Assembly (NCBI GenBank): GCA_947476065.1
Contig: CANJPG010000002.1
Location: forward strand, 1 to 64,000
Length of the DNA: 64,000 nt
Source: Fidelibacterota bacterium
GTDB taxonomy: Bacteria; Pseudomonadota; Alphaproteobacteria; Rhodospirillales; Rhodospirillaceae
Direction: 5' to 3'
Shown: piece after piece, positions 2,856 to 33,709 of the stretch
Position numbering within the stretch: position 1 is the stretch's first letter
Layout: the number at the start of each line of letters is the position of its first letter
Translations under genes and position numbers: made by a program
The notes under the pieces: generated by a model
Told to the model about the DNA's origin: nothing
Databases searched by the model: none
Seen by the model: the letters and a program-made list of their open reading frames with translations, nothing else

Positions 2856-4586
2856 ATGAACGCTTTGACCAAAACAGCCGAGGCTGCGGCGCACTCCACT
2901 ATTGGACAGATCCTGCTTCATCGCGACCTCATTGATGATGCCGATCTGGCCAAAGCGCTGACTTTCCAGTCGACCCTAGGAGGTCGCCTTGGCGCCATCC
3001 TGGTGCGCATCGGATCGGTCTCCGAAGACAACGTGCTTGATACGTTGTCATATCAGCTTGGCCTCGATGTGCTCGCCAGCGAGCAACTGCCGCAGGACCC
3101 CAGCACCTACATCGAAATCATGCGCGGTTCAGGAATTGAGCCTGAGTGGTGGATCGACCAGGGCGCGCTCGCGTGGCAGTTGGAAGACGGCGCAATCTGC
3201 TGCATATGCCGCGATCCCCTGATGCCGAGCTTGCAGGAAGCCCTCGCCGCCGCATTCCCCGACAAAAGCTTGGTCTGGCGCCTGGTGCGCAACCGCGATC
3301 TCGACATGATGCTCGATCTCGTCCGCCGCAGCCTGGCCGATGTCGGCCGCGACGTCACCGGCGATGTGGCCTTGCTGCGCGAACTGGCCGAAGAGGCACC
3401 GGTCGTTGAACTCGTCTCCAATGCACTTGCCCAAGCGGTGAACGAGGGCGCTTCGGACATCCATGTCGAGCCCCGCGAACACGAGTTTGACATCCGCTAT
3501 CGCATCGACGGCGTGCTGCAGAACCGGCTGACGCTGCCGCGCTCGAGATTCGACGCTGTCGCCTCGCGCATCAAGCTGATTGCGGGCCTGGATATCGCCG
3601 AACGCCGCCTGCCCCAGGACGGACGCATCGGCCTGCGCATCTCAGGTAAAGACCTCGACGTACGCGTCTCGTGCCTGCCCGGCGTGTGGGGCGAGTCCAT
3701 CGTCATGCGCCTGCTCCTGAAGGAGCAGAAGAACTTCACCCTCGCCAAGATCGGCATGTCCGCCGATCATCTGGAAGCCTTCGCGCGCCTGGCCAATGAG
3801 CCGTACGGCATCATCCTCGTCACCGGCCCGACCGGTTCGGGCAAATCGACCACGCTCAAGGCGACGCTGGAAGAAATCAAGGACGGCAAGCGCAAGATCA
3901 TCACCGTCGAGGACCCGGTCGAATACAACATTCCCGGCGTCACCCAGGTGCAAACCAAAGCAGACATCGGATACACCTTCGCCAGGGCCTTACGCTCCAT
4001 TCTGCGACAGGACCCCGACACCATCATGATCGGCGAAATTCGCGACGTGGAAACCGCGCAAATCGCTGTGCAAGCCTCGCTGACGGGCCACATGGTGTTC
4101 TCGACCCTACATACCAATGACGCGCTCAGCGCGTTCACGCGCCTGATAGACATGGGCATCGAGCCGTTCCTGGTCGCTTCGTCGATCCGCGCGGTCATGG
4201 CGCAGCGCCTGGTGCGCCAGCTTTGCCCCCATTGCCGCATACCGCACGATCCGCCAGCGGCGATCATGCAAAAGTGCCTGGATCTCCAAAAATTATTTCC
4301 CCAGTTGCTGTCCAGCGCGCCGCGCTGGTTTGCCGCCAAAGGCTGCCGCCAGTGCCAGAACACCGGCTACCGCGGCCGCCTGGGTATTTATGAAATGGCA
4401 GTGGTCACCGAACAACTGTCGGACATGATCCTCCATCAGAAACCGCTCCATGAAATGGCGATCTGCGCGCGTAAATCCGGCTATCGTGATTTGCTTGAGG
4501 ATGGTTTGATCAAAGCCTGGCAAGGCGAAACCAGCGTCGAGGAAGTGCTGCGCATCGCTGGTCAAATGGGCGTCGACGGCGATTGA
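2856..4586 (+). CDS. gspE: Type II secretion ATPase GspE
   Basis: This 576-residue cytoplasmic ATPase powers pseudopilus assembly. The N-terminal GspE-N (MshEN) domain spans roughly residues 10-150. The ATPase core shows Walker A GPTGSGKST (near residue 324-332), the Asp box, Walker B region IMIGEIRD (near residue 389-396) and the His-box segment TGHMVFSTLHTND. A zinc-finger-like insert, CPHC (near 457) and CRQC (near 497), follows as in GspE/PilB. Length is normal for GspE. The other T2SS genes lie 13-29 kb away in two more blocks. The next gene, a TPR-glycosyltransferase, starts 40 bp downstream on the same strand and is likely co-transcribed. Confidence 0.95.
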   Translation: MNALTKTAEAAAHSTIGQILLHRDLIDDADLAKALTFQSTLGGRLGAILVRIGSVSEDNVLDTLSYQLGLDVLASEQLPQDPSTYIEIMRGSGIEPEWWIDQGALAWQLEDGAICCICRDPLMPSLQEALAAAFPDKSLVWRLVRNRDLDMMLDLVRRSLADVGRDVTGDVALLRELAEEAPVVELVSNALAQAVNEGASDIHVEPREHEFDIRYRIDGVLQNRLTLPRSRFDAVASRIKLIAGLDIAERRLPQDGRIGLRISGKDLDVRVSCLPGVWGESIVMRLLLKEQKNFTLAKIGMSADHLEAFARLANEPYGIILVTGPTGSGKSTTLKATLEEIKDGKRKIITVEDPVEYNIPGVTQVQTKADIGYTFARALRSILRQDPDTIMIGEIRDVETAQIAVQASLTGHMVFSTLHTNDALSAFTRLIDMGIEPFLVASSIRAVMAQRLVRQLCPHCRIPHDPPAAIMQKCLDLQKLFPQLLSSAPRWFAAKGCRQCQNTGYRGRLGIYEMAVVTEQLSDMILHQKPLHEMAICARKSGYRDLLEDGLIKAWQGETSVEEVLRIAGQMGVDGD

Positions 4587-4626
4587 TGCCGACGCGGCGC
4601 ACCGTTCAACCGCATGGCGTGGCGGC

Positions 4627-6546
4627 GTGATGACAGGCAAAACACACACCGATGGAGCCGACCTTGCAGCGCTGCTGAACGCTGCAGCGAGTCGCCATCA
4701 GGCCGGCGACCTTGCGGGTGCCGACGCTCAGTACCGTGTTGTTTTGCAGCAGGCGCCGGACCATCCCCAGGCGCTCTATTTGGCAGGCGCTCTCGCGTTT
4801 CAGATAGGTGCGGCCGACGAGGCGCGCACCAAGCTCGAGCATTCCCTGAGGTTGCGGGGGGATTACCTGCCAGCCATTGAAATGCTCGGCGCTGCAGCCG
4901 CCAAGGCCGGTGACTTCACGCGCGCAGCGCAGTGCTTCACGACCGTGGCGGCGAAAAAACCTGACTCGACCGAGGCGCACTATAATCTTGGCTATGCGCT
5001 GCTCAATGGGCAGGCTTATGACGACGCCGCCAATGCGCTGCGGCGTGCTGTTGAGCTGAAGCCGGAGGCGGGTCAAGCGCTCCACCTTTTGGCGGCGGCG
5101 CTACGGTTAAGCGGTCGCATGGATGAGGCCGCCGGCGCATATGAGCAACTCGTCGCACGGGAACCGCGCAATGGGCGGGTGCTGGACGAATACGGCGGCG
5201 TACTCATCATGCTAGGACGCATGGCCGAGGCCGAGGTCGTGTTGCGCAGGGCGATTGCATCTGCCCCCGATATGGCCAATCCCTACACCAATCTGGGGCG
5301 CATTTTTCAGACCGATTTGATGCGGGCCGACGCGGCCGTGACGCTTCATGACCAAGCGCTTGCCCGTAGCCCCGGCTATGCCGATGCCCACAACAATCGC
5401 GGCGTGGCGCTTTATACGCTCAGCCGCTTCGCCGAGGCCATCGACAGCTTCAATGCCGCTATCGCGCTCAAACCGACGCTATGTGAAGCCTTCAATAATC
5501 TGGGCAACGCGCTTTACAGAACTGGCGACGCCACAGGTGCCATTCAGAACTTCCAGCGTGCGGTCGCCCTCAACCCGGACTACGCCGAAGCCCATTGGAA
5601 TTTGGCGGTGGCGCATCTCACCGGCGGTAACTTCGCCGCCGGCTGGACGGAATACGGCTGGCGCTGGCGCTGCAAGGATTTCACCTCTCCACCGCGCCGG
5701 TTTGCGCAGCCGCAATGGCACGGCCAACCTATGGATCAGGGGACGCTGTTGCTCTGGGGCGAACAGGGCCTGGGCGAGGAAATTCTTTGCGCCGGCATGG
5801 CTGCGGATATCGTTGCAACCGGCACGTCGGTCGTTTGGGAATGCGATGCAAGACTGGCGACCTTGATCACGCGCAGCTTTCCGGGCGTACGGGCCATCGC
5901 GCGCCGCGACCCGCCTGGCGTGGTAGCCAAGGAGTTGGAAATCCACGCGCAAATTTCAACCGCCGACCTGGGCCAATACCTGCGCAACACGCCTGCAGAC
6001 TTTCCCAAAAATCGCTTGGGTTATTTGAAGGCCGATAAACACCGTATGCAGGCCTATCGCACGCGGTTACTGAGCAACAAACGCACGCGTCTCGTTGGTA
6101 TATCTTGGATCAGCAAGAACCCCGAATTCGGCGTGCACAAGTCCTGCGGTCTCTTGGACCTGCCACCGCTTTGGCAGGCGGCCGGAGAGAAAACACGCTT
6201 CGTCGATTTGCAGTACGGCGACACGACCGCAGAGCGCGTGGCAACGGCCAGCGATCTAGCCCATTTGGATGACTTGGACCTCACCAACGATATCGATAGC
6301 CTGGCTGCACTCATTGCGGCCTGCGATCTTGTCATCACTGTGTCCAACACCACCGCGCATCTGGCCGGGGCACTGGGAATCCCGACCTGGATCATGGCGC
6401 CGGCCGGCAACGGCAAGCTTTGGTATTGGGGGGACAACACAAAATCGCCGTGGTACCCCTCGGTAACCATTTTTAGACAATCCGCCGCCGGCGCCTGGGG
6501 CGACGTGATCGCAAAAATCGCGCAGCATTTGGGAGCGGCCCCATGA
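4627..6546 (+). CDS. TPR protein with GT9/heptosyltransferase-like domain (module 1)
   Basis: This is a 639-residue protein. Residues about 10-335 form roughly nine TPR units (for example residue runs ending in AHYNLGYALL, AFNNLGNAL, AHWNLAVAHL). From about 340 onward comes the conserved C-terminal module seen in all nine paralogues of the window: GW.EY.WRW, then LLLWGEQGLGEEI, a Rossmann-like central part, VDLQYGD, and the signature CDLVITVSNTTAHLAGALGIPTW followed by WYW and SPWYPS. That last block resembles the nucleotide-sugar site of GT9 heptosyltransferases. It follows gspE by 40 bp and overlaps the next paralogue by ATGA. Acceptor and donor are unknown; protein glycosylation is inferred from the OGT-like TPR plus GT layout. 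Confidence 0.85.
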   Translation: MMTGKTHTDGADLAALLNAAASRHQAGDLAGADAQYRVVLQQAPDHPQALYLAGALAFQIGAADEARTKLEHSLRLRGDYLPAIEMLGAAAAKAGDFTRAAQCFTTVAAKKPDSTEAHYNLGYALLNGQAYDDAANALRRAVELKPEAGQALHLLAAALRLSGRMDEAAGAYEQLVAREPRNGRVLDEYGGVLIMLGRMAEAEVVLRRAIASAPDMANPYTNLGRIFQTDLMRADAAVTLHDQALARSPGYADAHNNRGVALYTLSRFAEAIDSFNAAIALKPTLCEAFNNLGNALYRTGDATGAIQNFQRAVALNPDYAEAHWNLAVAHLTGGNFAAGWTEYGWRWRCKDFTSPPRRFAQPQWHGQPMDQGTLLLWGEQGLGEEILCAGMAADIVATGTSVVWECDARLATLITRSFPGVRAIARRDPPGVVAKELEIHAQISTADLGQYLRNTPADFPKNRLGYLKADKHRMQAYRTRLLSNKRTRLVGISWISKNPEFGVHKSCGLLDLPPLWQAAGEKTRFVDLQYGDTTAERVATASDLAHLDDLDLTNDIDSLAALIAACDLVITVSNTTAHLAGALGIPTWIMAPAGNGKLWYWGDNTKSPWYPSVTIFRQSAAGAWGDVIAKIAQHLGAAP

Positions 6547-8168
6547 CGGCGCCATTTTCTTCGTCCCCCGCGGTTATGACCGGCGCCGACGCCTACCGCG
6601 AAGCCGTGCGGTTGGACGGCTTGGGCCGCTACGCCGAGGCCCAGAAACTGTGCCAGCAGCTTCTGAAGGCGAAACCCGACCTTCCCGACGTCCACCATTT
6701 GCTCGGGGTGATCTTCTTCCACGCAGAACGCTTTGAGGATGCAACTCGCCATCTCAAACAGGCGCTGAAGCTGAAGCCCGACCTCACCGAAGCGGCCTTC
6801 AATCTTTCCAAGGTTTACTACCGCAAGGGCAAGTGGCCGGAGTTGCTGGCCGCTCTCGAGACGGTCCATCAGGCCTGGCCTGACCGCGCCGGCATCTTAA
6901 TAGACATCGGCTTGGCGCAGGAGCAAGTCGGCGATATTGCCGCCGCTACGGCCACCTACCGCAAAGTCCTTGAACGCGATCCCTTGTCACCGCTAGCGCA
7001 TTCCAACCTCGGCGCGATCCTGACCCGGCAGGATGCGGTGGCCGAGGCCGAGACGCACCTTAAGGCGGCCATGGCAGTTCCCCACCCGCCCCCGGCAGCC
7101 TTCCTGAACATGGCGATGCTGCATGAGGTCGCGGAACGGCGCGGCGACGTGATTGCCGCTTATGACGCCCTCATCGCCACGCATCCCGACCTCGCGCATG
7201 CGCATTTTCAGCGGGCCTTGTCCCTGCTGAATCAAGAGTGTCTTGCCGAAGGCTGGCGTGAATATGCGTGGCGATTCCGCCGCCCTGAGTCGCGCACGCT
7301 CGATAAGGCCTTCCCGATTCCGTATTGGCAGGGCGAATCGTTGCAGGGTCATAAACTTCTCATCTGGACGGAGCAGGGACCGGGGGATGAAATTCTGCTG
7401 GCGTCGATGATCCCCGATGTCCTGGCGCAGGGCGCCGAAGTGCTATTGATCTGCTCGCCGCGTCTTGTGCCGCTCTTTCGCCGATCGTTTGAAGGCTGCC
7501 GCGTGATATCCCACGACCGCATTCATCACGCCGATAGCGGCGTCACACAATGTACCCTGCAGGCTTCTTTTTCACATTTGGGCGCCGTGCTGAGGCCCGC
7601 AGCGAGCGCCTTTCCCCAACGGGAAAAGTATCTGACCGCCGATGCCGCCAAACGCGCGACTCTCCGCGCACGTTACCAATCCGGAATATCGGACCGCAAA
7701 CTCATAGGAATCGCCTGGCATAGCGCCAATGCCTCCGCCGAGAGGCAAAAGAGCGCCGGCTTGGATGCATGGGCGCCGATTCTGAAGAATGAGGCGACTT
7801 TCGTCAGCCTGCAATATGGCGATCATGCAAAGAATATTAGAGCCGCGCGCGAGGCCTTCGGCTGCGAGATCATCGCCGACAAATCAATCGACGCCCTTAA
7901 GAGCATCGATGACTTTGCCGCCCAGGTCGCGGCTATGGACCATGTAGTGACAGTCAGCAATACGACCGTGCATGTCGCCGGAGCTCTGGGCGTGCCGACA
8001 TTCGCGCTGATACCGCAGTCCTACGGCCGCCTGTGGTATTGGTTCCTGGATCGCACCGACAGCCCTTGGTACCCATCCTTGCGCCTCTTCCGCCAGCACC
8101 AGATGAACGATTGGGCACCAGCTATCGCCGAGGCCGGCGCGGCCCTGTCTCGCGCCCTGGGAGCCTGA
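6543..8168 (+). CDS. TPR protein with GT9-like domain (module 2)
   Basis: This is a 541-residue paralogue. TPRs cover about residues 15-230; the catalytic-type module begins with AEGWREYAWRFR near residue 233, followed by LLIWTEQGPGDEI, FVSLQYGDH and the MDHVVTVSNTTVHVAGALG signature, then WYWF and SPWYPS. The usual HLAGA is HVAGA here. It starts inside the stop of the previous gene (ATGA) and ends 1 bp before the next, so four paralogues at 4.6-12.6 kb form one tight operon behind gspE. Confidence 0.85.
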   Translation: MTAPFSSSPAVMTGADAYREAVRLDGLGRYAEAQKLCQQLLKAKPDLPDVHHLLGVIFFHAERFEDATRHLKQALKLKPDLTEAAFNLSKVYYRKGKWPELLAALETVHQAWPDRAGILIDIGLAQEQVGDIAAATATYRKVLERDPLSPLAHSNLGAILTRQDAVAEAETHLKAAMAVPHPPPAAFLNMAMLHEVAERRGDVIAAYDALIATHPDLAHAHFQRALSLLNQECLAEGWREYAWRFRRPESRTLDKAFPIPYWQGESLQGHKLLIWTEQGPGDEILLASMIPDVLAQGAEVLLICSPRLVPLFRRSFEGCRVISHDRIHHADSGVTQCTLQASFSHLGAVLRPAASAFPQREKYLTADAAKRATLRARYQSGISDRKLIGIAWHSANASAERQKSAGLDAWAPILKNEATFVSLQYGDHAKNIRAAREAFGCEIIADKSIDALKSIDDFAAQVAAMDHVVTVSNTTVHVAGALGVPTFALIPQSYGRLWYWFLDRTDSPWYPSLRLFRQHQMNDWAPAIAEAGAALSRALGA

Positions 8169-8169
8169 C

Positions 8170-10974
8170 ATGAACCAGGCCAAACTCGCCCGCCAATTGC
8201 AGGACGCCGCCGGACATCATCAGAGCGGAGATCTCGTCAACGCAGAGAGGCTCTATCGACTGGTCCTGAAACAAGCCCCGCAACAGCCCGATGCCCTACA
8301 TTTGCTGGGGGTCCTCCTCGATCAGCGCGGCGACACCGCCAAAGGCATAAGCCTCGTGCGCCGAGCCTTGGGCGTTCAGAGTGCCTTTCCGGATGCCCAT
8401 TTCAATCTGGCGCGCATGCTGGCGGCGGCGGGAGACGTTGACGGCGCCAGGCGTCATTATGAACTCACCCTTGCGCTTAAGCCGGGACACGCCAGGGCTC
8501 ACAATGGCCTTGGCGTGCTGTACCGCGCGCAGCACGACTACAGTCAGGCCTATGCCGCCTTCGAGCGGGCCGCACGCTTCGAGCCGCGGCTGCTGGAAGC
8601 CTATATCAACCTTTGCAACACGTTCCGCGACAGCTGCAATGAAGCTTTTATCCCCAAGGCGGCAAACCAGGGATTGGCGATCGATCCAGAGTGCACGGAA
8701 TTGCATCTGCTGCGCGCCGAAGCTTATTTCACCGCCGGAAACCTTGTCGAAGGCTGGCGTGACTATGATTGGCGATTTTCGGTCCGCAGAACCCTGCTCG
8801 ATGTGAAGCCGGTAAAGGTTCCCAATTGCGCTCTGCCGCATTGGAAAGGTGAAGACCTCGCGACAAAAGGTATCCTGATCTGGGGTGAGCAAGGCGTCGG
8901 CGATGAAATCATTTTCGCCAATATGCTGTCGGCCATTTCCGCCCGCGCAGGCCGCTGCGTTGTGCAGACCATATCCCGTCTTGTTCCGCTCTTTAGGCGG
9001 TCGTTTCCCGGCATCGAAGTGTACGCCGACGCCATACCGACCGATGTCGCCGCGGCGCTCGATGTACAGAGTTCGTTGGGGAGCATAGGGCAGTGGGTTA
9101 GGTCCTCGTTCCGGTCATTTCCGGCCATTGGGAGTTATCTCAAGGCGGACGTAGCGCGCACTGCAGCGCTGCGTGCCAAATATGCGGGTACAGCCCGCGG
9201 ACTTATTGTCGGTCTGGCTTGGCGCAGCGCCAATGTGGCCGATGCCGCCGAGAAGACCGCGGCTCTCGAACACTGGGGGCCTATCCTCAAAATTCCCGGC
9301 CTCACCTTCGTCAATCTTCAGTACGGCGAAACGGCCGAAGTCATCGCCGGAGCACGCGCCGCTTTCGGCGCTGAGGTCATTGTCGATAAGGACGTCGATG
9401 CCTTGGCTGACCTGGATGGCTTTGCAGCCCAGGTCGCCGCGATGGATGTGGTGATTTCGACCAGCAACACGGCTGCGCATATGGCGGGCGCCCTGGGCGT
9501 GCCTACATTTTGCATGGTCCCGCGTGCCTTGGGCGGCGGACGGCGCTGGTATTGGTTCGGCGAAGGCCAATATTCTCCCTGGTATCGCGCCTTGCGCCTC
9601 TTCCGCCAGACGCAAGACCATAGCTGGACCGACACGATTGCGGCGGTGGCGCTGGCGCTGATGGAATGCGCTATCGCCCACGCCCCGCCCTCCAGCGACT
9701 ACCAGAATATGTACGGCATGATGCTCGCGCGTGCGCAACGTTTTGAGGACGCCGTACAAGCTTATCGTCGAGGGATTGCCTTGGCGCCGGAGCGCGCGGA
9801 AATTCACAACAATCTCGGCACGGCTCTGCGCCGAAGTGGACGCGATAGTGAAGCCGAGGAGGCCTATGCCCAGGCTTATGCCCTGAATCCAGAACATCCA
9901 TCGATCCATCTCAACTATGCGATGTCGCTTGCCGATATCGGACGATTGGATGCGGCTTTGCAAAGCTTGGATCGCCTAATCGAACATCGGACTGGCAACG
10001 TTGATGCACAATACAACCGGGCGCTGCTCCTCATGGGCTTGGGACGTTTGGCCGAAGGCTGGGCAGCCTTCGCTTGGCGCATGAAGCGACCCTTTGTCCA
10101 CGTCAGGCACACGGACTTTCCACAGCCTCTCTGGTCGGGACAATCACTTGCCGGCAGGCACATCCTCGCCTGGACCGACCATGGCCTCGGTGACGAAATT
10201 CTGCTGGGCAGCCTGATACCGGATGCCTTGGGGGTCGCGCGTCAGGTGACGTTGCTCTGTTCAGAGCGCCTCGTCGGGCTGTTTCGCCGCTCATTCCCGG
10301 CAGCCACGGTGGACATACGCGCGGCACCATTGCCGGCGGCGGCCTTGTCGAAGGACATCGACTTTCAAATGTCGATTGCTGAACTCGGCGCGGCTTTTCG
10401 CCCTAATTTTGCATCGTTTCCGGCAACATCCAGTTATCTCAAAGTCAATGATGCCCTGCGTGCCTCCTTGCGCGACAGGTATCTCGAACATGCGCCGCGC
10501 AATAAACTGGTCGGCATCTCCTGGCGCAGTATCAACCCCGAAATTGGCGCCCAGAAAGGTGTCGATCTGGCGGCTTGGCTGCCGATCCTCAAGGTTCGCG
10601 GCGTGACCTTTATCAATTTGCAGTACGGTGACTGCAGCGCCGAGATCAGGCGTCTTCGGCAGGACCACGACGTGGAAATCATTGACGATGCCGCTGTCGA
10701 TAGACTGGGGGACATGGACCCGGTGGCGGCGCAGGTGGCGGCAATGGACCATGTCATTACCATCAGCAACACCGCGGCCCATCTGGCGGGCGCTACCGGC
10801 ACGCCGGCCTGGATCCTTGTGCCTGAAGGTCACGCACGGCTGTGGTATTGGTTCAAGGGCCTGCGGCGCTGCGCGTGGTACCCATCAGCTGAGTTGCGCG
10901 TGGTAGAGGGCGGCGATTGGCAAAAGGCCATCGCGCGCCTTGGGGCGGACTTGGCGGACCGGGTCCCGTCATGA
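8170..10974 (+). CDS. Double-module TPR-GT9-like protein
   Basis: This is a 934-residue protein built as TPR-GT-TPR-GT. The first TPR block spans about 1-185 and the first GT module about 190-500 (GWRDYDWRF, LIWGEQGVGDEI, FVNLQYGE, MDVVISTSNTAAHMAGALG, WYWF, SPWYRA). A second short TPR block spans about 505-615, and a second GT module about 620-934 (GWAAFAWRMKR, LAWTDHGLGDEI, FINLQYGD, MDHVITISNTAAHLAGATG, WYWF, AWYPS). The two halves have diverged, so this is not a recent duplication. No frameshift separates them: it is one continuous frame. Two modules in one chain could transfer two sugars in sequence, or one may be structural. Confidence 0.85.
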   Translation: MNQAKLARQLQDAAGHHQSGDLVNAERLYRLVLKQAPQQPDALHLLGVLLDQRGDTAKGISLVRRALGVQSAFPDAHFNLARMLAAAGDVDGARRHYELTLALKPGHARAHNGLGVLYRAQHDYSQAYAAFERAARFEPRLLEAYINLCNTFRDSCNEAFIPKAANQGLAIDPECTELHLLRAEAYFTAGNLVEGWRDYDWRFSVRRTLLDVKPVKVPNCALPHWKGEDLATKGILIWGEQGVGDEIIFANMLSAISARAGRCVVQTISRLVPLFRRSFPGIEVYADAIPTDVAAALDVQSSLGSIGQWVRSSFRSFPAIGSYLKADVARTAALRAKYAGTARGLIVGLAWRSANVADAAEKTAALEHWGPILKIPGLTFVNLQYGETAEVIAGARAAFGAEVIVDKDVDALADLDGFAAQVAAMDVVISTSNTAAHMAGALGVPTFCMVPRALGGGRRWYWFGEGQYSPWYRALRLFRQTQDHSWTDTIAAVALALMECAIAHAPPSSDYQNMYGMMLARAQRFEDAVQAYRRGIALAPERAEIHNNLGTALRRSGRDSEAEEAYAQAYALNPEHPSIHLNYAMSLADIGRLDAALQSLDRLIEHRTGNVDAQYNRALLLMGLGRLAEGWAAFAWRMKRPFVHVRHTDFPQPLWSGQSLAGRHILAWTDHGLGDEILLGSLIPDALGVARQVTLLCSERLVGLFRRSFPAATVDIRAAPLPAAALSKDIDFQMSIAELGAAFRPNFASFPATSSYLKVNDALRASLRDRYLEHAPRNKLVGISWRSINPEIGAQKGVDLAAWLPILKVRGVTFINLQYGDCSAEIRRLRQDHDVEIIDDAAVDRLGDMDPVAAQVAAMDHVITISNTAAHLAGATGTPAWILVPEGHARLWYWFKGLRRCAWYPSAELRVVEGGDWQKAIARLGADLADRVPS

Positions 10975-12566: not shown

Positions 12567-12615
12567 AAATGGAGACCTTTTTCCAGCCCCCGCGACCAGT
12601 CGAGGACAGCGCGTT

Positions 12616-13290
12616 ATGATCAAAGTGTTTATCGGTTTCGATACCCATGAAACTGTCGCTTTTCACGTCCTCGCGCACAGCATTCACGCGCGCGCCTCCG
12701 AGCCGGTTGTCATCGCGCCGCTGATGCTAACGCAATTGAAATCGCTCTTTCACCGTGAGCGCAATTCTTTGCAGTCTACCGAATTTTCCTTTTCGCGATT
12801 TCTGGTGCCACACCTCTCCGGCTACGAAGGTTGGAGCCTATTTTGCGATTGCGACATGCTGATGCTCGACGACATCGCCAAGCTGTGGGCCGTGCGCGAC
12901 GACAAGTTCGCCGTACAGGTCGTCAAGCATGAACATGTACCGCCCGAGGACATCAAGTTCCTCAATCAGCCGCAAACCAAGTACGCCAAAAAGAACTGGT
13001 CGAGCGTCATGCTGTTCAACAATGCCAAGTGCCGCGCCCTGACGCCCGAATACGTCAATACCGCGACCGGGCTCGAGCTGCATCAATTCAAATGGCTCGG
13101 CGATGATTCCCTGATCGGCGAAATACCGCACCGCTGGAATCATCTGGTGGATTACGATCAGCCGGCGCCGGTCGAGGCCCTCTCCCTCATCCATTTCACC
13201 GAGGGCGGCCCCTATTTCGAAGCCTATAAAAACTGCGGCTACGCGGACCTATGGCTCAGCGAGCGCGAACGCATGCTGTCAGCGGGCTAG
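12616..13290 (+). CDS. GT8-like glycosyltransferase
   Basis: This 224-residue, single-domain protein begins MIKVFIGFDTHE, typical of nucleotide-diphospho-sugar transferases of GT-A fold, and carries the metal-binding D-x-D motif in FCDCDMLML near residue 78. FNNAKC and a WNHLV segment also fit GT8-like enzymes. The frame is open 78 bp further up, but the ATG at 12616 gives the correct first beta-strand. It follows the four TPR-GT genes in the same direction. Its 3' end overlaps the converging TPR-GT gene by 12 bp. The acceptor is unknown. Confidence 0.7.
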   Translation: MIKVFIGFDTHETVAFHVLAHSIHARASEPVVIAPLMLTQLKSLFHRERNSLQSTEFSFSRFLVPHLSGYEGWSLFCDCDMLMLDDIAKLWAVRDDKFAVQVVKHEHVPPEDIKFLNQPQTKYAKKNWSSVMLFNNAKCRALTPEYVNTATGLELHQFKWLGDDSLIGEIPHRWNHLVDYDQPAPVEALSLIHFTEGGPYFEAYKNCGYADLWLSERERMLSAG

Positions 13291-15402: not shown

Positions 15403-15405
15403 GCC

Positions 15406-20416: not shown

Positions 20417-20565
20417 CGCTATGCGTTCAAAACCGACAGAGGGGAAACACCGGCGTCAGATAATACCAGTTTGACGCCTACTCGACTTACGAATGTGTCA
20501 TTTGGGCCGGCCAATAAGCCATTGGAAGTATTTGGAAAATGCTGGCTGGTCGTCGAAGAAACGGC

Positions 20566-20600
20566 AAAGAAAAAGGGGGGATGGAAAACCATCCCCCCTT
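20566..20600 (-). terminator. Rho-independent terminator of the Ser/Thr-rich protein gene
   Basis: On the minus strand GGGGGGATGG - TTTT - CCATCCCCCC forms a perfect 10-bp stem (20575-20598) followed by TTTTTCTTT. It lies 30 bp after the stop of the exported-protein gene and insulates it from the gspF operon. It is the strongest terminator in the left half of the window. Confidence 0.92.
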
Positions 20601-20628
20601 CTCGTCGACTTAGACTAAGTCGTCAGGC

Positions 20629-26084: not shown

Positions 26085-26246
26085 GGTGGGTGTTAATTTC
26101 TTCCGGCTAGCGGGTTTATGTATGGAGCAGATCGCCGTGCACGAAACATGGTAATTTAAACCGGACTTTGCAGCCCCGGCGATCACAGTGAAACAGGGGC
26201 ATAGGGCGCTTCAATATACTTTTGCGGGCATGACGGAAAGTTAGGG

Positions 26247-28154
26247 ATGGCAGGCGTGAACGAATTTGGCGAGGCTTTCGCCGCCCATAGCGCGGGTCGC
26301 TTGGATGAAGCCGAGCGCGGCTACCGGGCCGTCCTGGCCCATACGCCTGGCCACGCCGATGCCTGGCACCTCCTGGGCCTGATATCACATCAACGAGGGC
26401 GGCCGGAGGAAGCAGTTCCAGCCATTCAACGGGCGTTGCAGCTTAGCGGCCCCCAAGCCACCTATTTTACCAATCTGGGCGTAGTACTCGAAACGTTGGG
26501 CCGCAGTGCGGAAGCGGCCGAGATACTAACGAAGGCCATTGCACTCGAGCCTAAGTCTTTTGGGGCGGCATTTGCGCTAGCAAGCAGCCTTGCCCGGTTG
26601 GGCAAACTAGATGGAGCCGAAGCCCACTTCAGGCAGGCAATCGCGCTCGAGCCTACTAGCGCCCCGGCGTACAACAGCTTGGGCAGTATCCTCCAGAGCC
26701 GAGGCTGTCGCGACGAGGCCGAGGCATCTTACCGTCGTGCCCTTGCACTCAACCCCCGCCATGCCCGCGCCCATTATAACCTGGGCACGCTGCTCAAGGA
26801 CTGCGGCCTTCTTGATGCCGCCGTGGAAAGTTTTCGCGTGGCACTTTCCATCAGCCCCGACCTTGCTGAGGCCCACGTCAATCTGGGGACAATTCTGCAT
26901 GACCAGGGACATATCGACCAAGCCATTGCGCATGCCCGCCAGGCCATCGCCCTCAACCCCCAGGATGCAGTTGCTCATAACAACCTTGGGGCAGCGCTGC
27001 GTGACAGTGGCCAACTCGATGCGGCCATAGACAGCTACGCGGCGGCTATTGCGCTAAAACCATCGATGGCCGAAGCGCGACACAATGAGGGCGTGGCGCT
27101 TCAAAAGCTGGGCCGCGAAGAGGAGGCGCTTGAAAGCTATAAGCGCGCGCAAGACCTGAAAAGCGACTTTGCGGAAGCGGAGCAGAACGCCGCCTTGCTG
27201 ATGCTCATGCGCGGTAATTTCGCCGAGGGCTGGAAGCTTTACGAAAGCCGATGGCGCAAGGGCCAAGCATGGCGCGACTTCCCTTACCCGCTTTGGCAAG
27301 GTCAGGACGGCGGAACTGTTTTGGTATGGGGCGAGCAGGGTGTTGGTGATGAAATTCTCTACGCCAGCATGATTCCGGATTTGATCGCCCGCGGTCAGAA
27401 TGTGGTCATAGAAACCGACAAGAGATTGACCGGGCTATTCGAGCGTTCGTTCCCCGGCGCCAAGGCAATCGCACGCCGCAGTCCGCCCGATCCAGCAACG
27501 CAAAGTGCTGAGATTAGCTGGCATAGTCCGCTGGCCAATCTTGGACGCTGGTTGCGCCCCGACGCTGCAAGTTTTCCGAAACGAGCGTCGTATCTTCGCC
27601 CCGACGCAGAACGCCAAGCTCACTACCGGGCCCTGCTGAAAGAGGGCAACCCCCGCGCCATCGTCGGCATAACCTGGGCCAGCATCAATCCGAAAATCGG
27701 TCGCCAGAAGAGTATTAATTTGGGGCAGTGGATTCCGATCTTGACCATGCCGGGCGTGCGTTTCGTCGATCTGCAGTATGGCGATACTGACACCGCGCGC
27801 GCCGCGCTTGCCTCAGAAACCGGGGTCTCCCTGACGCATATCCCCGACCTCGACCTCACCCACGACCTTGAAGGCGTGGCGGCCCTGGCTGCGGCTTGCG
27901 ATCTTGTAATCTCAGTCAGCAGCACAACGGCACATTTGGCGGCTTCGACGGGATGTCCGACCTGGGTGTTGGTCCCAGCGACGGGGGGCAACCTATGGGT
28001 ATGGATGCATGGTTTGGACCACACTCCCTGGTACCCTAACGCGACGATTTTCCGTCAATCGCAGCCCGGACATTGGACGGACGTTCTAGAAAGTGTACGA
28101 GAAGCCCTACACGCCCACATTGCGAACGTGCCGCAGTTACAGCAAATTAACTAA
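26247..28154 (+). CDS. TPR protein with GT9-like domain (module 10)
   Basis: This is a 635-residue paralogue. About nine TPRs at 1-320 start with FGEAFAAHSAGRLDEAERGY. The GT module from about 324 shows GWKLYESRW, VLVWGEQGVGDEI, FVDLQYGD, CDLVISVSSTTAHLAASTG, and VWMHG in place of WYWF, then TPWYPN. It groups with the 13.3-kb gene rather than with its immediate neighbours, which argues that the array arose by several older duplications. It lies 128 bp upstream of gspK on the same strand. Confidence 0.85.
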   Translation: MAGVNEFGEAFAAHSAGRLDEAERGYRAVLAHTPGHADAWHLLGLISHQRGRPEEAVPAIQRALQLSGPQATYFTNLGVVLETLGRSAEAAEILTKAIALEPKSFGAAFALASSLARLGKLDGAEAHFRQAIALEPTSAPAYNSLGSILQSRGCRDEAEASYRRALALNPRHARAHYNLGTLLKDCGLLDAAVESFRVALSISPDLAEAHVNLGTILHDQGHIDQAIAHARQAIALNPQDAVAHNNLGAALRDSGQLDAAIDSYAAAIALKPSMAEARHNEGVALQKLGREEEALESYKRAQDLKSDFAEAEQNAALLMLMRGNFAEGWKLYESRWRKGQAWRDFPYPLWQGQDGGTVLVWGEQGVGDEILYASMIPDLIARGQNVVIETDKRLTGLFERSFPGAKAIARRSPPDPATQSAEISWHSPLANLGRWLRPDAASFPKRASYLRPDAERQAHYRALLKEGNPRAIVGITWASINPKIGRQKSINLGQWIPILTMPGVRFVDLQYGDTDTARAALASETGVSLTHIPDLDLTHDLEGVAALAAACDLVISVSSTTAHLAASTGCPTWVLVPATGGNLWVWMHGLDHTPWYPNATIFRQSQPGHWTDVLESVREALHAHIANVPQLQQIN

Positions 28155-28282
28155 GAAATAGAAGGAGATGTCCTTACGGTCGGCCGCGTCTAGTACGACA
28201 TTATGCGCTCAGTGACCGCCACCCTGCGCCGTGAGACACTTCGTCTGACGCGCACATTGGGCGGAAAACTCCTGGATCTGAA

Positions 28283-29428
28283 ATGAGCTTGGCGGACGCA
28301 AAATATTGTGACGACCACTATGGCTGCGTCGGCTACAGGCGTGCTGCGCGCGCGCGCGGCTTTATCCTGCCCCTGACCCTTTGGCTGATCGCCATAATGG
28401 GATTGCTGGCCGCCACGCTGAACGTCTGGGTGGGCAAAACTGTCGCGAACTCCTTGGCTCTAGCCCAGCGCACCCAATTGGAGCTAGCTCAATCCAATCT
28501 GCGCAACGAATTAGTTTTTCTGATGGGAACCCGACCAACCAGTTTTCGCGGGCTGGAAGTCGGGGCAAAGATGGCATTTGCGAACATCAACGATTTCAAC
28601 TCGGTGCTAGCGGGCCCCTCGGATTCCGGCCGGTATATCAAGTTCGACGGACGCCCCTATATTTCCGAGAGTGAGCCAAACATGGTCGTCACCGTTTACG
28701 ACGGGACCGGCTTGTTCAACCTGAACATCGCAACCCCGCAAAACCTACGGCGGATGTTCACGTCCTTCGACATACCGGAGACGCAAGCCAACCGCCTGAT
28801 CGACATGCTACTCGACTATGTCGACGAAGACGACTTTACGCGGCTGGCAGGCGCTGAGAAGACAGAGTACGCCCGGCTTGGTCTGCTTCCGCCCAGCAAT
28901 ACTTTTTTGCTCACGCCCCTGGAAGCACAACGCATCATGGGATGGGACAAGCTTGGAGCGCTCTGGGATTCGGATATGAATTCACCGCTTTTCACAACCT
29001 GCCAAACCGCCGGCTTCAATCCCAACAACGCGCCGGTCAACGCGCTTGTCGCCAACGTGCGCGGCATGACCCGCGATAAGGCCGATCAGGTGATGGAGCG
29101 GCGCAATGACAAACCGTTCCGCAATAGTCGAGAGTTTGCGGCGGCAGCAGATCTGCTGATTGCCGATGAGCCGTTCTTTTATACTTTTGTTCCCGGAAAC
29201 TGCGTGGTGGTCGATATGATCGACAAGATATCCGGCCAGCACGGGCGTTTTTCTTTAACCTTAGAACCCGTCTCACAAACGCGACCATGGCGAATTGATT
29301 ATGCGATTAGAATCCCTGCCCAGTACCGCGCAGCGCTGGATCACCTCGACCCAGAAGCTGTTTTCCCAACCCCCGAGAGTATTGATATACCGACCGGGCC
29401 AGACGGAAAACCGCTCAAACTCCAATAA
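28283..29428 (+). CDS. gspK: Type II secretion minor pseudopilin GspK
   Basis: This is a 381-residue, large pseudopilin capping the tip. The N-terminus RARGFILPLTLWLIAIMGLLAATL has a prepilin-type site and, as usual for GspK, no Glu at +5. The long soluble domain includes DGTGLFNLNIA, LLDYVDEDD and NPNNAPVNAL, typical GspK landmarks, including the helix-hairpin-like domain with MTRDKADQVM. The start ATG overlaps the stop of a 27-codon frame at 28203. The last 128 bp overlap gspL in another frame. Confidence 0.92.
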   Translation: MSLADAKYCDDHYGCVGYRRAARARGFILPLTLWLIAIMGLLAATLNVWVGKTVANSLALAQRTQLELAQSNLRNELVFLMGTRPTSFRGLEVGAKMAFANINDFNSVLAGPSDSGRYIKFDGRPYISESEPNMVVTVYDGTGLFNLNIATPQNLRRMFTSFDIPETQANRLIDMLLDYVDEDDFTRLAGAEKTEYARLGLLPPSNTFLLTPLEAQRIMGWDKLGALWDSDMNSPLFTTCQTAGFNPNNAPVNALVANVRGMTRDKADQVMERRNDKPFRNSREFAAAADLLIADEPFFYTFVPGNCVVVDMIDKISGQHGRFSLTLEPVSQTRPWRIDYAIRIPAQYRAALDHLDPEAVFPTPESIDIPTGPDGKPLKLQ

Positions 29429-30425
29429 CCGTGTTCTGTGGGTTCTTGGCCGTAAAGCGACGCGACAAAGCGTATTCACGTTCCCCGCCGACGTTGCGGA
29501 GAACAAGAAGAAGGCGTTGCTGCGCGTGCAGGTGCGGCGCTGGGCGCCCTTTCCCAATGTGAAGTACGTCGCTCATTGGTCCGGCAGCCGCGCCAGCGTC
29601 TATGCCTGGAACGACGACGAGGTGAAGAAAGATATCACTGAAGCAGGATTCAACGAGCGCCGCTGTACGGTTTATCCCGAAGCCTTCATGCGCACGCCGC
29701 TGCAGAACGGCGTTCGGCTGGTAGCGGCGATCGAGGGGTTTGAGGCTCAGGTGTGGCGAGACGGTTTTCTGACCTTCAGCAGGTGGTGGTCGCAAAAACC
29801 CACTCAGCTGGAATGGAACATGTTTCTGCGCTCGGCCGGAATGCCTCTGGACCAGAACGGCGGCGACGTGCCGGAGCCGGACCCCGCGCCTTTTCTTGAA
29901 ACCCCGTGGATACGCCACGAAGGATATCTCGGCGGCACCCTTGCCGTGCTCGAGGATCCCCGCTACGCCATCGCCATCGGCGTGATGGTTGCAGCACCCT
30001 TTATGTATTTGAGCGCCGAGTATTTGACGCTCGCAATTTCGAATGCGCGCGTGAAACACAATATGGAAACCCTGTCCGTTGAAACGCAGGGCATCCGTAA
30101 GCTGCGGAGCGAAGCCATTGCCAATCTCGACGAAATCGAAGACTACCTCGCCCTCGAAGTCTACCCCAGTCAGTTCGAAGTCATGGCGACCGCGCTCGGA
30201 CTTCTTCAGGGACTCAACGTAAAAATACTTGAGTGGAATTACGACGTGGGGTCGCTTTCGTTCACAGTTCGATCCGAACGCGATATTGAAGCGACCGTCG
30301 TCATCACCGCCTTCGAAAAAAGCGGCGCCTTCTCGAACGTCGCCGCTTCGCGCGGCGGACAGGACCGACAGATGACCATGCGCATGGACGTATTGCCCAA
30401 ACAAACCAAGACGGCGAACCGATAA
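29301..30425 (+). CDS. gspL: Type II secretion protein GspL-like
   Basis: This 374-residue bitopic protein has a cytoplasmic actin-like part (about 1-235), one membrane segment (YAIAIGVMVAAPFMYLSAEY, near residues 222-241), a coiled-coil segment (RVKHNMETLSVETQGIRKL) and a periplasmic ferredoxin-like domain ending around FTVRSERDIEATVVITAF. That is the GspL layout; it links GspE to GspM. The ATG at 29301 lies 128 bp inside gspK, an unusually long overlap; no good ATG or GTG start is found just after the gspK stop, though TTG at 29382 is possible. Assignment rests on layout and position between gspK and gspM. Confidence 0.8.
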   Translation: MRLESLPSTAQRWITSTQKLFSQPPRVLIYRPGQTENRSNSNNRVLWVLGRKATRQSVFTFPADVAENKKKALLRVQVRRWAPFPNVKYVAHWSGSRASVYAWNDDEVKKDITEAGFNERRCTVYPEAFMRTPLQNGVRLVAAIEGFEAQVWRDGFLTFSRWWSQKPTQLEWNMFLRSAGMPLDQNGGDVPEPDPAPFLETPWIRHEGYLGGTLAVLEDPRYAIAIGVMVAAPFMYLSAEYLTLAISNARVKHNMETLSVETQGIRKLRSEAIANLDEIEDYLALEVYPSQFEVMATALGLLQGLNVKILEWNYDVGSLSFTVRSERDIEATVVITAFEKSGAFSNVAASRGGQDRQMTMRMDVLPKQTKTANR

Positions 30426-30429
30426 CACG

Positions 30430-31068
30430 ATGAACCTTTCCAACTCCCTCACACCAGCGCTCGCCTACCTCCGGCGCCACATCAGCCAGGAGGCGGTGAG
30501 CAACGAACGCCTCGTGCTACTGTCGGGCGGCGCGGTGGTGCTCGTGGCGCTGTCATTGCTGTTTGGTTTCTGGAGTTTGACATCGCGCAAAGGCGAGGAG
30601 TTGTCGAAGTCACGGGCGGCTATGACGCGTCTTCAAGCCGAGGTAACAGGCGATCAATGGCCGAAGCGTCTTGAAACCACTCAAGCCTTGAAAACACAAC
30701 TCAGCGTGCGCCTATGGGATGCCCCTACCCCGGGTTTGGCGGAGGCCGGGTTTGAATCGTGGCTGCGCAATCGCTTCACAAGTTACGGCGGCGCGCCGCA
30801 GCAGATCCAAATCACGCGCAGCCCGGCGGTCGGACGCGACGGACAAACCACCTCGACCCTCGCCGGTTTGCAGCGTATGACCGCCAAGGTCATCGCGCCC
30901 TTCGACCAATCTGTGATCATGAAGGTCTTGGGCGACGTAGCCGAAGCGGAAAAACTTATGGTGGTGGACCGCTTTATCGTCCGCGCCGGCGCCAACAGCC
31001 GCCTCGAAATGGACGTATCGACCTTTATCCGCACGAATGATGCAAATGCCGGCAGGGCCAAGCCATGA
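30430..31068 (+). CDS. gspM: Type II secretion protein GspM-like
   Basis: This 212-residue protein has a short cytoplasmic tail, one membrane helix (LLSGGAVVLVALSLLFGFWSL, near residues 33-53), a heptad-rich segment and a small periplasmic domain, as in GspM, the partner of GspL. It starts 4 bp after gspL and overlaps the next gene by 4 bp (ATGA). Sequence is divergent and the call depends on layout and gene order. Confidence 0.78.
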   Translation: MNLSNSLTPALAYLRRHISQEAVSNERLVLLSGGAVVLVALSLLFGFWSLTSRKGEELSKSRAAMTRLQAEVTGDQWPKRLETTQALKTQLSVRLWDAPTPGLAEAGFESWLRNRFTSYGGAPQQIQITRSPAVGRDGQTTSTLAGLQRMTAKVIAPFDQSVIMKVLGDVAEAEKLMVVDRFIVRAGANSRLEMDVSTFIRTNDANAGRAKP

Positions 31069-31550
31069 TCCAGCAGGTCCTGGCAAAGGTTCGTCTGCGC
31101 CTGCCCGACGCAAAGGCGTTTTTGCCGCATGCAGCCGCGTTGATGATCTTTGCTTTTATTGGCTGGATGAACGGCTTTTTTCAGGCGACGCGCACTATCG
31201 ACAATCCCAATCTGAAGGAAACGTGGTCGGTTCCCAATTGGGCGCCGGCTTACATCGGCCCGGAACGCGCTATGTTGTCGGCCTTGGACATTTGGGAGGG
31301 CGGCAAGAAGCCACAATCTGCCGTCAAGGAAGCCCCAAAACAGGCTTGGAAGCTTATCGGTACCGTTCAGGCGGGCAAATCATATGCTGCCGTCATCTTG
31401 CTGAGTGACGGCAAGCGCGTGCAGCGCGCGGCGGCAGGCGACGTTCTCCCCAACGGAGAAAAAGTCCTCGCGGTCGGCCATGGCTCGCTTCAAATTGATG
31501 TCTCCGGCACCCAGCAGGAGATCAAATTGTTCAAACCAGAGAAGAAGTAG
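31065..31550 (+). CDS. gspC: GspC-like inner-membrane protein (HR domain)
   Basis: This 161-residue protein has one N-terminal membrane helix (AAALMIFAFIGWMNGFFQA, about 24-42), a linker, and a C-terminal beta domain (about 93-157: WKLIGTV..GKSYAAVIL.SDGKRV...AGDVLPNGEKVLAVGHGSLQI) matching the homology region by which GspC contacts the secretin. The PDZ or coiled-coil C-terminus of classical GspC is absent. It lies directly in front of gspD, as gspC usually does. A GspP-like or PilP-like protein is the alternative. Confidence 0.68.
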   Translation: MIQQVLAKVRLRLPDAKAFLPHAAALMIFAFIGWMNGFFQATRTIDNPNLKETWSVPNWAPAYIGPERAMLSALDIWEGGKKPQSAVKEAPKQAWKLIGTVQAGKSYAAVILLSDGKRVQRAAAGDVLPNGEKVLAVGHGSLQIDVSGTQQEIKLFKPEKK

Positions 31551-31552
31551 AC

Positions 31553-33709
31553 ATGCTGAGAACTGTACCCCCGACTTTTACCCGAGCCCGCTTTGGACGG
31601 ATGTGCATGGCAGTTGCAGCCTGCGCACTTGCCAGCTGCGCCGAGCGCCAACCACATCTTCCAAAGCCGCTCCACGTACCGCAGGCCTCGAAAGATCGGG
31701 AGTTCACCATGCTCTCGGGCAACGAGGTCAAACGCACAGCCCTCTCCTCGTCGGAAGGCCTGACGCCGCCGGTGGGACGCACATTGGCAGAACCCTTCTC
31801 CAGCAGCACACCGCCGCGCCTGACGGGCGAGAATATTGGCGTCAGCTTCGAGGGTATAAAGCTGCCCGCTTTCGTCAATGCGGTGTTCGGCGAATTGCTC
31901 AAGGTGCCCTTCGACATTGACAGCGCGGTCGCGACCCGTGAGCAGCTGATTACGCTTAACATTCCCGAGCCGCTTCCGCCGGAGCAGTTCTTCCAGGTTA
32001 TCCGCCAAGTGCTCGCCAATAACGGTTTGTCGGTTATCTACCAGAGCGACACCAAGGTTTATCGTATTATCGAGGCTGCCACGGCCAAGGCCGACGTGCC
32101 GCAAATCGTACGCAACCGCGCGCTGTCCACCGTTCCGGGCGACCAGCGGCCGATTTTTTACTTTGCCCCTATTCACAATGTGCAGAGCGCCTTCATGCAG
32201 GGCTGGCTGGAGCTGGCGTTGCGCGACCGCGTGCGCTTCAGTGGCTTCGGCAATGCCAACGGCCTGTTGCTGATGGGCAAGCGCGAAGACATCAATGCCG
32301 CCCTGGAGACGCTCGAAATCCTCGATCAGCCGACCATGGCCGGCAGCCACAGCCTGAAAATCACCCCGGCTTTTTGGAGCGCCGGCAAGCTAGTCGAGCA
32401 GCTGGTCACCGTGCTTTCGGCTGAAGGCTACAGTGTGACCAATGGGGCGACGGCGACGGCGGCCATCCGTATGATTCCTATCGAGGCCTTGAATACGATC
32501 ATCGTTTTCTCGACCAATGAAACCACGCTGCAACACGTGTTGAAGTGGGCGTCCGATCTGGATCAGCCGTCGCAAACGATCAACACACAGAGCATGTTCT
32601 ACTATCCCGTCGAAAACGCATCGGCGAGCAAGATTGCGGCGCTGATAGGACAAGTTTTAGGCCAGGAGCCCGCCATCGTTGCCGCCGAGGCAAGCCGGGG
32701 AGCAGCTACCACCGGGGCCACCGGCAGCCTCGGCACTAACATGCAGCAAAGCCAGGGGAGCACAACTTCACGACCGGCAATCTCCGGTGTGAAGCAGAAG
32801 CTCATCGTCGACGAGACCCGCAATGCGATAATTTTCCAGGGCACTGCTGAAGAATACGCGCAGTTCCGCAATCTACTTGTACAAATGGATCGGGCGCCCC
32901 TAGAAGTGCTTATCGAAGCCACCGTTGCTGAAGTTACCCTCGACAAGACCGAATCACTCGGCGTGGTATTGGGCTTCAATGATGGCGCAAAGCTTGCGCC
33001 CAACAACAATCAGGTACGCTCGGATACCGGCCTGTTCGCGACCTTATTGCGCAGCCGTGGGCAAATTAGCGCCAATCTCAATGCACTGGCTTCAAATTCG
33101 CGGATAACAGTTCTGTCTACGCCGCGCCTGGTCACCATCAGCGGTAACGCCGCCAGCATCCAGGTCGGACAGCAGGTTCCCATCGTCACGACCCAGCAAA
33201 CGGCCCCCACGGGCACAGTTGGCGGCACAAGCAACATTCTTCAGGACGTGCAGTATCGTAGCACTGGCATCAATCTCAGCATAAAGCCGACCATCAATTC
33301 AAACCGCCGCGTTGAGCTGACGATATCCCAGGAAGTCAGTTCAGCGGCGGTGAACAACGTCTCGGATATCGACAGCCCGATCATTCAGCAGCGCAGTATC
33401 CAAACGACTTTGTCGCTGGGCGACGGTGAAACGGCCCTTCTCGGCGGATTGATCACCGAAAACTATAACTCCGGCAGTTCTGGGGTGCCTTACCTCAAGG
33501 ACATTCCGATCCTCGGAAACCTGTTCAAGAATCAGTCCAACAACCTGACGCGCACCGAGTTGATCGTGATCCTCACGCCCTACATCATTGACGGCCCCGA
33601 GACCTCGCGCGCAGTTCTAGATGCCTTCAAGAACCGCCTCGGCGAATGGGCACACGATATCCCCGTCACGGCCGTCGACGAGAACGGCGCCATCAAAGCA
33701 GCCCAGTAA
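31553..33709 (+). CDS. gspD: Type II secretion outer-membrane secretin GspD
   Basis: This is a 718-residue secretin. Its N-terminus ends in a lipobox LASC with Cys29, so it is probably a lipoprotein, which could make a pilotin unnecessary. N0-N3 domains precede the secretin domain (about 445-690) with VPIVTTQQT, YRSTGINLSIKPTI, QQRSIQTTLSLGDGETALLGGLI and VPYLKDIPILGNLFKN. A Gly/Ser/Ala/Thr-rich insert near residues 375-410 lies in the N3 region. It ends the gspK-L-M-C-D block and is followed by a Sel1-repeat gene. Confidence 0.95.
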   Translation: MLRTVPPTFTRARFGRMCMAVAACALASCAERQPHLPKPLHVPQASKDREFTMLSGNEVKRTALSSSEGLTPPVGRTLAEPFSSSTPPRLTGENIGVSFEGIKLPAFVNAVFGELLKVPFDIDSAVATREQLITLNIPEPLPPEQFFQVIRQVLANNGLSVIYQSDTKVYRIIEAATAKADVPQIVRNRALSTVPGDQRPIFYFAPIHNVQSAFMQGWLELALRDRVRFSGFGNANGLLLMGKREDINAALETLEILDQPTMAGSHSLKITPAFWSAGKLVEQLVTVLSAEGYSVTNGATATAAIRMIPIEALNTIIVFSTNETTLQHVLKWASDLDQPSQTINTQSMFYYPVENASASKIAALIGQVLGQEPAIVAAEASRGAATTGATGSLGTNMQQSQGSTTSRPAISGVKQKLIVDETRNAIIFQGTAEEYAQFRNLLVQMDRAPLEVLIEATVAEVTLDKTESLGVVLGFNDGAKLAPNNNQVRSDTGLFATLLRSRGQISANLNALASNSRITVLSTPRLVTISGNAASIQVGQQVPIVTTQQTAPTGTVGGTSNILQDVQYRSTGINLSIKPTINSNRRVELTISQEVSSAAVNNVSDIDSPIIQQRSIQTTLSLGDGETALLGGLITENYNSGSSGVPYLKDIPILGNLFKNQSNNLTRTELIVILTPYIIDGPETSRAVLDAFKNRLGEWAHDIPVTAVDENGAIKAAQ

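Follow-up and report, generated by a model that had tools for sequence, protein, structure and literature searches.

The window analysed here, a stretch of 64,000 nucleotides from a member of the Rhodospirillaceae (contig CANJPG010000002.1, assembly GCA_947476065.1), carries the genes of a type II secretion system (T2SS) interleaved with nine genes whose products join tetratricopeptide repeats (TPRs) to a putative glycosyltransferase (GT) domain and are here called TPR-GTs. The initial annotation had divided the T2SS genes into three blocks, namely gspE, gspF to gspJ and gspK to gspD. Its coordinates for this set were right, and the spacings it gave are exact: 4 bp from gspJ to a TPR-GT gene, 40 bp from gspE to another (4586/4627) and 128 bp from a third to gspK (28154/28283). 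Two genes were missing from it, one for a Ser/Thr-rich protein encoded next to gspF, designated X, and one for a GT8-like glycosyltransferase, designated U1 (12616–13290). Genomes, contigs and loci are cited below by our numbers with the prefixes G, C and L.

Genes of the locus

Four TPR-GT genes follow gspE on the forward strand (T1, 4627–6546; T2, 6543–8168; T3, 8170–10974; T4, 10917–12566) and are succeeded by U1 on the same strand. T5 (13279–15402) and T6 (15406–17124), the latter being the gene 4 bp after gspJ, lie on the reverse strand, as do T7 (22447–24393) and T8 (24393–26186) on the far side of X, and T9 (26247–28154) precedes gspK on the forward strand. Pfam detected TPRs in all nine, and none of the products has a signal peptide as judged by eye. 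T3 is a single protein with two TPR-GT units, its full GT domains being encoded at 8734–9663 and 10039–10971, and the nine genes thus encode ten GT domains (that of T1 at 5623–6543), which share 36 invariant columns when aligned.

Three of the ten GT domains were scanned with Pfam; two matched Glyco_transf_9 (E 0.0017 and 0.012) at 18.2 and 15.4 bits, short of the curated GT9 cut-off of 22, and the third had no match. A profile of all ten domains met a single PDB chain, which belongs to a heptosyltransferase (E 0.099), and no GT41 family is among the Pfam matches listed for the TPR-GT proteins. The predicted model of T8 (16 sequences, mean predicted local distance difference test score (pLDDT) 87) consists of a TPR superhelix followed by a Rossmann-like alpha/beta C-terminal domain, and Foldseek returned SPINDLY and O-GlcNAc transferase (OGT) as the top full-length matches of the TPR-GT model (E 7.5e-16, template modelling score (TM) 0.38). 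The assignment of the TPR-GT C-terminus as a GT-B domain, weak by sequence, is supported by the predicted fold. U1, whose start codon was set by eye, matches Pfam GT8 at E 0.0019, below the cut-off, and has a DCD motif visible in its sequence; a search of PDB sequences with U1 gave no match, and its homologue in L124 exceeds the GT8 cut-off of Pfam.

GspE, GspF and GspD were all recognised with Pfam or NCBIfam models. The ATPase gene gspE (2856–4586, forward) scores 454 bits with Pfam T2SSE and 565 bits with NCBIfam gspE (cut-off 630); gspF (19205–20416, reverse), the sole PF00482 gene found in the assembly, is below its equivalog cut-off; and the secretin gene gspD (31553–33709, forward) scores 163 bits with Pfam Secretin and 322 bits with NCBIfam GspD (cut-off 351). 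Since these three remain below the equivalog cut-offs, the machine is, as far as profile scores tell, a divergent T2SS. GspG (18691–19194, reverse) is a major pseudopilin of the T2SS type, with 109 bits for Pfam T2SSG and 165.5 bits for NCBIfam gspG TIGR01710, over the cut-off of 88.85. The minor pseudopilins H to K are present as well. The genes of the gspH-like (18198–18761), gspI-like (17746–18222) and gspJ-like (17129–17749) proteins, all on the reverse strand and each with an N_methyl match, were named from position together with weak matches (GspH for the first, GspI/XpsI for the second), and gspK (28283–29428, forward) has 32.9 bits for Pfam T2SSK_1st. It is followed on its strand by a gspL-like gene (29295–30425) without a family match, named from position and one membrane-like segment seen by eye, by gspM (30430–31068; NCBIfam GspM/XpsM 36 bits, below cut-off) and by a gspC-like gene (31065–31550) assigned from position and topology by eye only.

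On either side of this set lie two further forward-strand genes. An A24-family prepilin peptidase, presumably GspO, is encoded at 1114–1617 (Pfam Peptidase_A24 59.5 bits), with homologues near gspE also in G001, G009, G014, G016 and G020, and a Sel1-repeat protein (Pfam Sel1) is encoded directly 3' of gspD at 33747–34529, with a homologue after gspD in 18 loci. The N-terminus of GspE carries an MshE-type motif for binding cyclic di-GMP (49.7 bits, cut-off 38), so that export by this T2SS may be under cyclic di-GMP control.

Conservation of the locus and relationships of the TPR-GTs

With E <1e-90 as the criterion, an orthologue of this gspF was found in 36 of the 73 genomes of the family, belonging to 8 of its 23 genera, and the surroundings of all 36 were read. 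X lies directly 5' of gspF in every one of them; in three the contig end truncates it. In 32 of the 36 loci the sequence examined includes TPR-GT genes of this kind; in the other four the contig ends within X (G012, G020 and G352) or within gspF (G035). On other contigs, TPR-GT genes adjoin gspG to gspJ in G035 and gspE in G020 and G012. As controls, 51 other GspF/PilC/Tad loci from 61 genomes, including second systems of the same genomes, were read for about 10 kb on each side or to the contig end, and none contained a TPR-GT domain (Fisher's exact test, 9e-20). The tie between TPR-GTs and T2SS, for which a test of co-occurrence beyond chance had been suggested, is real, extends over 8 genera and is confined to one T2SS lineage.

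The three-block order, given weight by the initial annotation, is present in the window but is probably secondary. In G002, G003 and G019 the genes from gspE through gspD all lie on one strand, as do the parts read of G022, L142, L146 and L151. Because these colinear genomes include other genera, the order seen in the window was probably derived by inversions in one sub-clade. A different rearrangement of the locus is seen in G035 and G377.

In the genome from which the window derives, 10 of the 17 GT domains are concentrated in 23.5 kb out of a total of 3.26 Mb (binomial P about 7e-18, the stretch having been picked post hoc). Six of the seven copies outside score 157–179 bits, against 432–470 bits in the locus, and these six belong to a distant subfamily. 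Because the locus in the window supplied the sequences of the profile, locus copies are favoured, but full-length locus copies of relatives, which are absent from the profile, still score about 235–440 bits. Among the ten genomes with the locus on one contig (that of G015 breaking off within the array), 89 of 141 GT domains at E <1e-10 belong to the locus and 52 lie elsewhere. An equal abundance of TPR-GTs far from gsp genes had been named as the observation that would speak against the association, and what was found goes half way towards it: these 52 domains are indeed outside, but those outside in the genome of the window are mostly of the distant subfamily. The TPR-GT family as such is not specific to T2SS.

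A tree was computed from 150 locus GT domains (>250 bits and near full length; 14 further loci were left out) and 23 others. Read by eye, the copies group mainly by position in the locus and not by genome, more loosely so between distant genera. A recent expansion of TPR-GTs within individual genomes was considered and rejected: the nearest neighbour is from the same genome for only 7 of the 150 domains, compared with 6.9 when labels are shuffled. Since nearest neighbours are rarely from the same genome and grouping follows position, the copies are old and kept apart, as would be expected if each paralogue had its own task. The number of GT units per locus ranges from seven to eleven.

TPR-GTs also occur in two other export settings. 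On contig C45 of the same genome (L134), a TPR-GT gene is followed by those of a type I ATP-binding cassette exporter, an HlyD protein and a protein with ALTTAQ repeats and 35–37% Ser+Thr. Of nine other outlying places with TPR-GTs that were read, three (G001, G003 and G024) show the same order and six lack such a cassette. In all, this cassette was found in four genomes of two genera (L134, L187, L188 and L191), the ALTTAQ protein having 34–37% Ser+Thr, and it is possibly a system for a glycosylated type I cargo. On contig C32 of G118 (L121/L122), another genome of the class, the genes of FliS, FliD and flagellin adjoin five tandem TPR-GTs scoring >300 bits and a fragment. The TPR-GTs thus appear to be associated with three routes of export, and in every case a likely or known target of glycosylation is close by. 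Homologues of U1 were found near TPR-GTs in G110, G103 and G196, at places where no gsp gene was recognised.

Further downstream in the window is a sugar cluster. It includes genes of the GDP-D-glycero-D-manno-heptose type at 45430–52543 (a kinase, a gmhA-like gene and an hddC/gmhB-like fusion, all below equivalog cut-offs), together with a GT61 gene, a second GT61-like gene recognised by eye and rmlC. Two pairs of E1 alpha/beta-like dehydrogenase genes lie in the same cluster at 40731–44789 (one of each scanned, the rest assigned by eye). A further TPR protein, with a C-terminal part that is GT41-like by eye, is encoded at 53380–55455 and is unmatched by the TPR-GT profile.

Protein X and its C-terminal domain

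X (20629–22083, reverse) is the candidate main cargo by virtue of its position, composition and codon bias. Its N-terminus resembles a Sec-type signal as judged by eye. Ser and Thr make up 24–30% of the residues in 20 orthologues, which have few charges, and 21–30% in 14 further loci. The composition (low charge, rich in Ser, Thr and Ala) fits a surface-layer protein, export having been judged by eye and abundance by proxies. Of seven genes compared among close relatives, X is the least conserved, with an identity of 0.54 (gspF, 0.86). A Foldseek search with the low-confidence model of X gave no whole-chain match (TM 0.13–0.15, two matches below E 0.001).

An intrinsic terminator lies in the gap between X and gspF (20573–20600, reverse), with a perfect 12-bp stem, a TTTT loop and a T-rich tail (z of -2.7 on folding the gap). 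It was missed by the promoter scan and detected by gap folding and by a hairpin search requiring gaps of at least 40 nt and 6 T in 12. A hairpin with a T-rich tail occurs between X and gspF in 35 of the 36 loci, G035 being the exception, and in 485 other same-strand gaps, the majority of them too short to scan, the same search found only one. Among the long gaps, hairpins were found in 1 of 30 between a TPR-GT and X, in 0 of 18 between a TPR-GT and gspK and in 0 of 9 between gspJ and gspK. A transcript end between gspJ and the following TPR-GT gene, which the initial annotation had held to be damaging to its proposal, is not indicated, with no terminator in 19 such gaps, most of them too short; the end that is indicated falls between X and gspF.

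The codon-usage reference ribosomal protein L22 was not found in the assembly, which is rated 99.8% complete and perhaps lost the gene through a binning gap, and the effective number of codons (Nc) was therefore used. In 31 loci there were enough genes for the comparison, and X has the lowest Nc of its locus in 25 of these, where about 3.8 would be expected. Because X combines a terminator before gspF with the strongest codon bias, the two proxies suggest that its output is much higher than that of the machine. Low identity together with low Nc also fits an exposed and abundant protein.

The last 100 residues of X (20650–20964) form a domain, termed XCTD, which no Pfam family covers in X or in the XCTD proteins scanned. 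Elsewhere in the same genome it is carried by four proteases (one subtilase, two trypsin-like and one reprolysin-like), by a MauG-like protein and by a protein that matches no family. We collected 27 distinct XCTD proteins across seven genomes; the genome of the window contributed six, and the rest were hand-picked among the matches listed. In 22 of the 27 the domain lies at most 23 residues from the C-terminus. Pfam analysis of 24 identified 12 proteases over the cut-off, 3 Vgb-lyase-like proteins and 1 MauG; the remainder comprised 4 with InlB repeats only, 1 below the cut-off and 3 without a family. The proteases and other enzymes carry up to four copies of XCTD.

Of the 73 family genomes, 40 have XCTD, among them every one of the 36 with this gspF, and 33 have neither. 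By genus, 8 have both XCTD and this T2SS and 15 have neither (Fisher's exact test, 2e-6). In the sample of 289 genomes of the class, the only one with XCTD is the genome of the window itself.

In structure searches, the XCTD part of the X model resembles the Anabaena sensory rhodopsin transducer (Foldseek E 0.016, TM 0.71 by target length, 95 columns), which the XCTD profile also touches at E 0.38. Binding of small molecules, sugars among them, has been suggested for the family of this transducer, which we take as a lead only.

Proposed function and comparison with known systems

We favour the view that this T2SS lineage has a cytoplasmic module for protein glycosylation to itself and, in X, a main cargo of its own. 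That X is a cargo of the T2SS seems quite probable; that the TPR-GTs modify it is somewhat less so, but is what we lean towards. According to this proposal, i) X would be made in large amounts, from a transcript ending mostly before gspF, ii) the TPR arms of the array would bind X in the cytoplasm ahead of Sec, iii) each GT unit would O-glycosylate its own set of Ser/Thr residues in X, and U1 would extend some of the sugars, iv) Sec would carry the glycosylated X into the periplasm, and v) the T2SS would export it, giving rise to a coat or matrix on the cell surface. Modification before Sec follows if X is the acceptor, as the enzymes have no signal peptide by eye. The same T2SS would export the proteases and other XCTD enzymes, which may themselves be glycosylated, with XCTD either marking them for the T2SS or docking them on the coat of X. 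More tentatively, the lineage could be dedicated as a whole to a glycoprotein coat, with position-specific TPR-GTs dividing the labour on X and XCTD linking exoenzymes to the T2SS or, as a perhaps sugar-binding domain, to the coat.

Several observations weigh against this proposal. The likeness to GT9 and GT8 is weak by sequence, and a second structural alignment puts TPR-only proteins first, with OGT at Z of about 19–20 and a root-mean-square deviation of 9–16; since TPR-only proteins rank above OGT, the fold match is carried largely by the TPR part. TPR-GTs are widespread without a T2SS link, 41 of the 289 class genomes matching at E <1e-60. XCTD proteins other than X contain 15–30% Ser+Thr and so need not be glycosylated. 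XCTD also occurs without this gspF in G010, G017, G018 and G351, which belong to genera carrying this T2SS; in G010 gspJ of this system lies at a contig end, G017 and G018 are 76% and 89% complete, and G351, at 98%, is unexplained. The eight genera with XCTD and T2SS possibly form one clade, in which case statistics at the level of genomes overstate independence. As to X, it shows no special codon bias in G011, L141 and L142, its low Nc may partly reflect a skewed amino-acid make-up, no sigma-70-like promoter was found upstream of it in the promoter scan, and its structure model is poor (pLDDT 55). Its glycosylation, secretion and expression are inferred here.

It is unlikely that the TPR-GTs serve X and the XCTD enzymes mainly as chaperones for secretion or as targeting factors, with a GT activity that is secondary or lost. 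TPR proteins often serve as chaperones, and many paralogues could serve many XCTD cargos, but the 36 invariant columns over the ten domains of the window indicate that the GT half is under selection, and a separate GT8-like enzyme has been retained. Synthesis of a cell-surface glycan or part of the lipopolysaccharide, with the T2SS as a bystander held by linkage, would agree with the weak GT9-like signature and with the sugar-nucleotide genes at 35–60 kb, which include the GDP-heptose-type set. We consider it quite unlikely: interleaving is maintained in 8 genera, the TPR arms indicate protein acceptors, and none of the genes from gspE to gspD was recognised as a flippase, polymerase or ligase.

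The fixed place of X before gspF in 36 of 36 loci might also be that of a T2SS accessory protein in the inner membrane or periplasm, but the terminator and codon bias suggest an output of X far above that of the machine, X evolves fast, and its C-terminal domain is common to exoenzymes, all of which leaves such an accessory role with little probability. The initial annotation had left open whether the enzymes act on the exported protein, which remains the best reading, or on the pseudopilus; glycosylation of pseudopilins or other machine parts, although TPR-GTs do adjoin gspJ, gspK and gspE, is very unlikely, as seven to eleven GT units would be excessive for a few short pseudopilins, X is the constant Ser/Thr-rich neighbour, and TPR-GTs elsewhere lie beside flagellin or a Ser/Thr-rich cargo-like protein.

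If the proposal of a glycosylated main cargo is true, this T2SS would be one equipped with glycosylation enzymes of its own, and cytoplasmic, secretion-coupled glycosylation would be extended from flagellin and type V to type II secretion. More broadly, TPR-GTs would represent modular secretion-coupled glycosylation recruited separately to flagellar export and to type I and type II secretion. The basis of cargo selection by T2SSs is an open question, and XCTD, shared by X and exoenzymes and found only in genera carrying this T2SS, is a testable candidate signal. The old paralogous transferases would also be a natural system for studying how several protein glycosyltransferases share the sites of one acceptor.

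To our knowledge, the closest studied bacterial enzyme to the TPR-GTs is FlmG of Caulobacter. The two are likened by architecture and by the cytoplasmic modification proposed here, and are linked indirectly, through the flagellin cluster of G118, where the tandem TPR-GTs adjoining flagellin are matched by the profile of the locus. FlmG of Caulobacter crescentus is described as having N-terminal TPRs and a C-terminal GT-B domain, of which the TPR domain binds flagellins and the GT-B domain does not, and as modifying flagellin in the cytoplasm before export (PMC7591256). It is a single enzyme acting on flagellins for flagellar export, whereas the present locus has an array, a T2SS and a candidate cargo whose N-terminus is signal-like.

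For type V secretion, Sec-dependent exoproteins are reported to be glycosylated in the cytoplasm by dedicated enzymes, HMW1C/NGT and BAHT (TibC and Aah); in these accounts the NGT genes, and sometimes the BAHT genes, are co-transcribed with the cargo gene (PMC3012730, PMC8151025). They differ from the TPR-GTs in enzyme family, as far as tested, in secretion route and in consisting of a single enzyme instead of an array. Among T2SS cargos, YghJ/SslE of E. coli is reported to be O-glycosylated at many Ser/Thr residues, but the available text names no dedicated transferase and attributes the heptose supply to the general hldE gene (PMC8718676). SPINDLY and OGT of family GT41 likewise join a TPR superhelix to a protein O-glycosyltransferase, but the GT domain of the locus resembles GT9, weakly, and not GT41 by sequence. 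Searches of open-licence papers on T2SS with TPR glycosyltransferases, on T2SS with O-glycosylation and on alphaproteobacterial S-layers with T2SS did not find the combination described here. Each of its parts has a known relative, and we rate the combination as a variant of secretion-coupled protein glycosylation.

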